From the NCBI GenBank assembly GCA_965249615.1, contig CBDFMI010000003.1:3810-67809 (forward strand): DNA of 64,000 nucleotides. Direction: 5' to 3'. Positions 7,943 to 8,509 of the stretch are shown here, piece by piece (position 1 is the first letter of the stretch; the number at the start of each line of letters is the position of its first letter). The DNA comes from G963555815 sp965249615 [NCBI: bacterium] (GTDB lineage Bacteria; UBA8248; JACPRG01). The notes under the pieces were generated by a model. That model had not been told where the DNA came from. It ran no database searches and saw only the letters and a program-made list of their open reading frames with translations. A program made the translations under genes and the position numbers.

Positions 7943-8509
7943 TTAAACCAGGGATATCCCTTCCAACGAAAGAAGTTTTGCCTTCAGAGATAGACCCCCC
8001 GGGGCCGAAAAACCTCTCAGATCCCCCCGGGACCCAAGGACCCGGTGTCAGGGGACGGCCAGGGGGAACGGGTTTCGACCCAGGGCTGCCCCGACGGCTC
8101 GGGCCGCCATGGGTTTCCCAAGGGTTTTTGCGACCTCCCCATACGTGCGGATCGCCCCATAGGGGATCTTCTTCGTTGCCTTCAGGACGCGGCGGTCAAA
8201 TGGTGAAATGTCCGAGAGGTCCAGGGGGAAATCGAGGGAGGGGGAATCACCCCGGAAGTAGGCCTGGAGGGCAGAAACTGCTTTCAGGAGAGATGAAATA
8301 CTTAAAGTACGGGAGACATCGCTGACCTCCTCGACCTCGGAGATTCCAAGGCACTTGAGGGCGAAAAGGGCAGCTCGACGGTCTGGAAGGGGCAGAACGA
8401 TGTGTCTAACGCCCGCCTTGCTCGCGGCCACTCCACACCACCCAAAGCGGGTGTCGAATACAGTTGCTTCGATAACCGGGCGATCCAAGACCTTTCCCAT
8501 AATCTTCAT
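7943..8509 (-). CDS. ogt: O6-alkylguanine-DNA alkyltransferase with TGA at the catalytic codon (candidate selenoprotein)
   Basis: The family repairs O6-alkylguanine by moving the alkyl group onto an active-site Cys in a PCHRV motif. Here the protein runs with all upstream family features (PYGAIRTYGEVAKTLGKP, RAVGAALGRNP) to ...FPLAVP. Codon 154 is then TGA (8048-8050), followed in the same frame by [30 protein letters not shown] and a TAA at 7943-7945. That tail is the expected family C-terminus, so only the Cys codon is altered. A strong promoter and a ribosome site precede ATG 8509, so the gene does not look abandoned. A conventional call would end at 8048 and lack the active site. Selenocysteine, a nonsense mutation and a base-call error all remain possible. 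Confidence 0.8.
7998..8031 (-). promoter_or_regulatory. SECIS-like hairpin after the in-frame TGA
   Basis: On the minus strand, CCCGGGG (nt 17-23 after the TGA) pairs with CCCCGGG (nt 44-50). Above a 4-nt bulge, CUGAGA pairs with UUUUCGG-side bases to leave a GGUU apical loop at nt 34-37. Bacterial SECIS rules, as I recall them, ask for a loop 16-37 nt from the UGA with a G among its first two bases; both are met. GC-rich DNA makes hairpins easily, so this is supportive, not conclusive. Confidence 0.45.

Follow-up and report, generated by a model that had tools for sequence, protein, structure and literature searches.

In O6-alkylguanine-DNA alkyltransferases, the alkyl group of O6-alkylguanine is transferred irreversibly, in a single step, to the acceptor residue of the enzyme, and most known selenoproteins are redox catalysts which reuse their selenocysteine (Sec). 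A Sec-containing form of this repair enzyme already figures in printed inventories, as the preliminary description of the locus studied here had correctly suggested: the GOS table of 2008 lists a Sec-containing methylated-DNA-protein-cysteine methyltransferase with 1 Sec sequence, and with 2,879 in its last column, a figure taken here as the number of Cys homologues (PMC2398784), and the enzyme appears again in inventories from 2022 and 2026 (PMC9312934, PMC13188914), the more recent of which places it below ‘Predicted with high confidence’ (PMC13188914). Likewise, the algal selenoprotein MDP is presented as the Sec form of methylated-DNA-[protein]-cysteine methyltransferase (PMC7539508), that is, as the Sec form of the same enzyme as the candidate reported in this work. 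A laboratory counterpart is human AGT engineered to carry Sec in place of Cys145, which protects E. coli against MNNG while the Ser form does not, and in which Sec at 145 removes the need for Asn137 (PMC4150793); it has Sec at the acceptor position, like the protein proposed here, although it was made artificially via UAG and without a SECIS. For the natural Sec-alkyltransferase, the literature covered by our search, thin on subscription journals, offered predictions only and no bench test. In the Sargasso Sea study, a cluster with at least two conserved-TGA sequences was accepted as a new selenoprotein and a single sequence was regarded as a candidate (PMC1088965); by that rule the alkyltransferase family stands, and the gene described below is a good candidate member.

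In this work, we analyzed a stretch of 64,000 nucleotides from a bacterial contig, hereafter the window, which carries an alkyltransferase gene with a TGA at its catalytic cysteine codon. Our results indicate that this gene probably encodes a Sec-containing O6-alkylguanine-DNA alkyltransferase in which the UGA at codon 154 is read as selenocysteine, and that it is a putative new member of an already predicted selenoprotein family. The selenoprotein inference made in the preliminary description is upheld as the best reading because the same TGA occurs in six intact homologues from SelB-bearing genomes, and because a hairpin of like geometry follows the codon. The likelihoods attached to this and to the other readings discussed are our judgements and not computed posteriors. 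The features of the locus are the following:

7943–8509, minus strand: O6-alkylguanine-DNA alkyltransferase gene (ogt/adaB type), 188 codons with the TGA read through; matches PF01035 and TIGR00589.
8048–8050, minus strand: in-frame TGA at the catalytic cysteine codon, residue 154, proposed selenocysteine; placed by sequence, frame and structure alignments.
7946–8047, minus strand: 34-codon tail after the TGA with the family motif HRV...G..GF...K..LL..E; placed by frame, PF01035 and structure alignments.
8520–8527, minus strand: ribosome-binding-like GAAGGTGA, 10 nt upstream of the ATG; read by eye.

The plus strand reads tca at 8048–8050, which corresponds to TGA on the minus strand, and the alkyltransferase frame runs from the ATG at 8509–8507 to the TAA at 7945–7943, with 153 codons before the TGA and 34 after it. 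With C set for the TGA residue, the readthrough product matches PF01035 over all 81 profile positions (2.3e-30; 104.7 bits, cut-off 27) and TIGR00589 (4.4e-26; 90.7 bits, cut-off 46.4), both matches exceeding the curated cut-offs; the PF01035 match spans residues 103–185, 31 of which lie after the TGA. In alignments with solved alkyltransferases, the TGA stands opposite the Cys acceptor of the PCHRV motif, and the alignment continues through the tail as far as the C-terminal Leu-Glu. The best match among the solved structures is the ordinary Cys Ogt of PDB 4wxc, in which PCHRV stands opposite P-TGA-HRV and the acceptor is cysteine. The gene thus carries the profile over the DNA-binding/active-site domain that defines the family, and differs from the PCHR[VI] signature in that a TGA codon replaces the acceptor Cys; it also has the in-frame TGA, aligned with a conserved Cys and set between conserved flanks, that is expected of a bacterial selenoprotein gene. 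Therefore, both observations reported earlier, namely the TGA at the catalytic cysteine codon of a minus-strand gene, and the 34 further in-frame codons with the family C-terminus before a TAA, were confirmed. The predicted family represented in the GOS data by ABB14497.1, from an organism we take to be Carboxydothermus, shares with the window gene both PF01035 and Sec in place of Cys. As to its surroundings, the alkyltransferase gene stands alone, with a convergent small reading frame, located behind the EPSP synthase gene (aroA), on one side and a divergent rpiB-like gene on the other. Between aroA and the alkyltransferase gene, positions 7668–7910 of the plus strand encode an 80-residue hydrophobic, membrane-like protein with no Pfam match.

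Such an isolated position is compatible with a true nonsense mutation that has recently turned the gene into a pseudogene, with an inactive product of 153 residues, as loss of a gene lying between a convergent and a divergent neighbour would disturb no operon. The codon usage of the tail points the same way: its coding signal is weak, at 0.044 bits per codon where the in-frame mean is 0.36 (34-codon segments taken in frame score lower in 4% of cases, and off-frame segments score higher in 1.1%), and the +1 frame scores higher over the same stretch (0.164 bits per codon). Codon usage being weak after the TGA, the support for a living tail comes from protein homology and not from codon bias. Nevertheless, no second lesion was found in the 188 codons and the conserved residues past the TGA are retained; furthermore, stops elsewhere in homologues are rare, a single TAA having appeared among the matches listed from Myxococcota-type genomes and, apart from the TGA at the acceptor codon, none among those listed from Bacillota-type genomes. 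We therefore regard a fresh pseudogene as improbable. A codon-usage screen of the window for genes with an in-frame TGA, which the alkyltransferase gene itself fails, returned 5 other candidates, judged to be antisense frames or abutting genes. TGA ends 25 of the 37 checked window genes and is their main stop codon, so it is not generally reassigned; this argues against a decoding of the UGA as another amino acid (tryptophan, or a near-cognate readthrough) with no selenium involved, a reading whose one point in favour is the open frame after the TGA. In addition, an alkyltransferase with Trp or some other residue in place of the acceptor would have nothing to take up the alkyl group, and we consider this reading highly improbable.

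In order to look for the same TGA in other genomes, we used a DNA pattern for N-P-x5-P-TGA-H-R-V which, with TGY in place of TGA, matches 24 of 28 alkyltransferase loci. Genome samples were assigned to a phylum via the label of the home locus (Pseudomonadota, Bacillota or Myxococcota), and are hence designated with the suffix “-type”. The pattern scan found the TGA form in 4 of 398 Bacillota-type genomes, a lower bound given that the pattern misses forms such as L089 and L090, which were found by protein search; the control with the pattern reversed matched in 1 of the 398, and the TGA form was found in none of 398 Pseudomonadota genomes. A protein search of those 4 genomes together with 46 other Bacillota-type genomes detected homologues in 46 of the 50, at 53 listed places, 6 of which have a stop inside, in each case a single TGA: the 4 already known and 2 new ones (genomes G330 and G291). 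Thus, pattern scan and protein search combined place TGA forms in at least 6 of the 398 sampled Bacillota-type genomes. In 80 further Bacillota-type genomes, 74 of them with homologues, none of the matches listed has a stop inside, and among 235 Myxococcota-type genomes, 225 of them with a homologue, none of the matches listed has a TGA inside. The matches listed for those 235 genomes include a single stop, an in-frame TAA in one homologue (G161:C45:5416-5742). In these samples, which were chosen through the homologue loci and may not include the phylum of the window, no TGA form nearer in kinship to the window gene was found.

The six TGA homologues (L051, L052/L091, L053, L054, L089 and L090) are full-length alkyltransferases with the TGA at the acceptor codon. 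The preliminary description had called for a comparison of homologues at this codon (TGA, TGC or TGT); aligned there, six intact distant homologues have TGA, beside 84 rows (83 distinct) with Cys. All six, of Bacillota type, share with the window gene the TGA codon, the intact tail and a potential hairpin capped by a GGN loop, and they differ from it in the tail motif, which reads GAGG or AAGG in the six and GSRG in the window. The TGA is therefore conserved in other members of the family, none of which is close kin of the window gene: by tree path, the six are only distant relatives. A single protein search gave one match in each of the six TGA genomes and no second alkyltransferase in the form of a Cys copy, and the TGA form accordingly seems, from these sequences, to be the sole alkyltransferase in each of them. 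Regarding other sources, the longer form of the pattern had no match in viral contigs and the form used for the genome scans had 14, none of which reads as an alkyltransferase; among plasmids, 410 records hold alkyltransferase homologues, all under 60% identity; and a scan of genome contigs with the window protein returned 9 homologues whose best segments reach at most 50% identity. When 12 window genes were compared with the homologue loci, many of which have short flanks, the gene at 11143–11847 was the only one matched, weakly, in L004 and L017.

SelB (TIGR00475) exceeded the curated cut-off in all 6 TGA genomes. The same was true of 29 of the 40 other Bacillota-type genomes surveyed (33 of 44 for the first survey as a whole) and of 2 of the 14 named controls. 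This association between SelB and the TGA form is the expected one, yet it is weak by itself.

Directly downstream of the UGA, the mRNA can form a hairpin:

8016–8038, minus strand: candidate bacterial SECIS, a 10-bp stem pairing +10 to +19 with +23 to +32 after the UGA, with the GGG loop at 8026–8028 (+20 to +22).

In the window, 9 nt separate the UGA from the stem and 19 nt separate it from the loop. The six homologues have a stem of 6–7 bp, compared with 10 in the window, and a 3-nt GGN loop at +19, that is, with 18 nt between UGA and loop, or one nucleotide nearer the UGA. Their common helix has 92.9% of its cells paired, a value reached by 25 of 500 shuffles, and one pair is changed on both sides. 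Among the Cys forms, none of 84 rows (83 distinct) has at least 6 bp with a 3-nt GGN loop at +18 to +21, the best having 5 bp; with looser loops, 3 Cys rows reach 6–7 bp and none reaches 8 or more. These counts are not blind, since the geometry was set after the window hairpin was known and the range +18 to +21 was picked to cover both registers. As to chance, 20000 synonymous recodings of the window peptide gave a 10-bp stem in 0.3% and a 6-bp stem in 5.2% of cases, the same test on the six homologues, with the codon usage of the window, gave 3–9%, and of 12222 codon positions in 37 window genes, 28 reach 6 bp and 1 reaches 10 bp. In algae, as eukaryotes, Sec decoding relies on a SECIS located outside the coding region.

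The folding calculations were mixed. When 36–48 nt after the UGA were folded with the first 9 nt kept unpaired, the hairpin had a mean pair probability of 0.95–1.0; with 57 nt a competing fold prevails and the pair probability of the hairpin falls to 0.04, as likewise occurs in L053 and L054. The 45-nt fold is not more stable than its shuffles (z +0.59), and under loose SECIS rules a SECIS-like hairpin of the same stability arises in 50% of 400 synonymous recodings. With a covariance model derived from the six homologues, the window hairpin scores 19.0 bits, 6 bits more than any other place in the window; the model does not single out this sequence, given that it is outscored by 11 of the 84 Cys loci at this site and by a twelfth (L016) elsewhere, and we take it that it mostly reads the shared HRV codons. 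As to the codons after the UGA, the seventh residue past the acceptor is Asp or Asn in 58 of the 84 Cys rows, with Gly in 8 others and Arg in 5; the six TGA homologues all have Gly at this position, and the window gene has Arg.

Phylogenetic analyses were carried out with two sets of sequences. A first tree comprised 47 rows, with 16 loci left out by the extraction rule and with L052 and L091 representing one gene. In it, the window gene falls in a starred group of 10 rows with L052 (and its copy L091), L089, L090 and adjoining Cys forms (97/85), and also in a 96/83 group with three Cys forms, and the starred branches imply at least three changes of the TGA label. In a second tree of 90 rows, without L028 and L025 (the latter being the same gene as L001), the window gene has no settled position and at least two changes of the TGA label are forced, hence Sec has been gained or lost more than once in the alkyltransferase family. 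Judged by these sequences, the Sec of the window gene may be a separate case. We give roughly even chances to a broader reading, in which the switch of the acceptor from Cys to Sec took place several separate times in bacteria, often where no other alkyltransferase was seen in the genome, the window gene would be one more case from a different lineage, and the codons after the UGA would have been reshaped for the hairpin.

According to the mechanism we propose, a stem-loop starting 9 nt past the UGA in the mRNA would aid the decoding of this codon as selenocysteine; the source organism would be expected to possess the Sec machinery, its SelB would bind the hairpin, and the full-length protein would be made. 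A selenol or selenolate would then replace the thiolate as the one-shot acceptor of the methyl or alkyl group from O6-alkylguanine in DNA, by analogy with the protection conferred on E. coli by human AGT engineered to carry Sec at its acceptor position (U145), and we infer that Sec would give faster or broader repair. The Asn of the NP motif is retained in the window alkyltransferase and, as far as this residue tells, the active site is not relaxed in the manner of Sec-AGT, in which Asn137 is dispensable. If the proposal is true, the enzyme would be a single-turnover, non-redox selenoprotein in which one Sec is spent per repair event, an odd use of selenium; moreover, since the predicted family recurs among Bacillota that have SelB (no fewer than 6 of the 398 genomes sampled), it provides genes in which the effect of Sec on transfer speed and lesion range can be tested.

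The remaining explanation is that the gene in reality encodes an ordinary cysteine enzyme, whose TGC or TGT was altered to TGA by an error in sequencing or assembly. Mindful of sequencing errors, the authors of the Sargasso Sea study count a lone Cys/TGA pair as no more than a candidate (PMC1088965), and in the window TGC is the common Cys codon (87 TGC and 35 TGT), one base from TGA. Furthermore, a codon-usage frame scan combined with Pfam pieces revealed two clear frameshifts and one probable one within otherwise intact window genes. A DUF72 gene at 57272–58218 (minus strand) is split in two frames at an eight-G run (57697–57704), with profile positions 1–123 on one side and 126–216 on the other. 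In a RodZ-like gene at 13967–14862 (plus strand), the frame changes ahead of the C-terminal RodZ_C domain (frameshift site around 14690–14760), with the result that this gene and the next one, presumably aroE-like, look like a fusion. In a WYL/WCX regulator at about 35480–36553 (plus strand), the N-terminal helix-turn-helix part seemingly lies in another frame (site around 35560–35700); the signs of this break are a switch of frame and an HTH match below threshold, the N-terminal piece being without a Pfam match.

Single-base indels thus exist in the contig or in the organism, and the frameshifts in these genes suggest sequence errors; they keep an error at the TGA alive as an explanation, though they give little reason to expect a substitution at one particular codon, the observed breaks being indels and not substitutions. 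Within the alkyltransferase gene, 49 single-base changes could make a stop, 15 of them yielding TGA, and an error would have had to strike the one of the 49 located at the acceptor codon, exactly where other homologues have TGA. The geometry of the hairpin, unusual among Cys forms, also speaks against an altered cysteine codon, and we consider an error unlikely. For the long form of the NPxxxxxP-TGA-HRV DNA pattern, the window has a single match, and 100 shuffles gave none. Finally, the 63 coding segments of the frame scan contain 4 in-frame stops, all of them proper ends of listed reading frames, so that the TGA of the alkyltransferase gene is the only nonsense codon seen in the scanned segments of the window.
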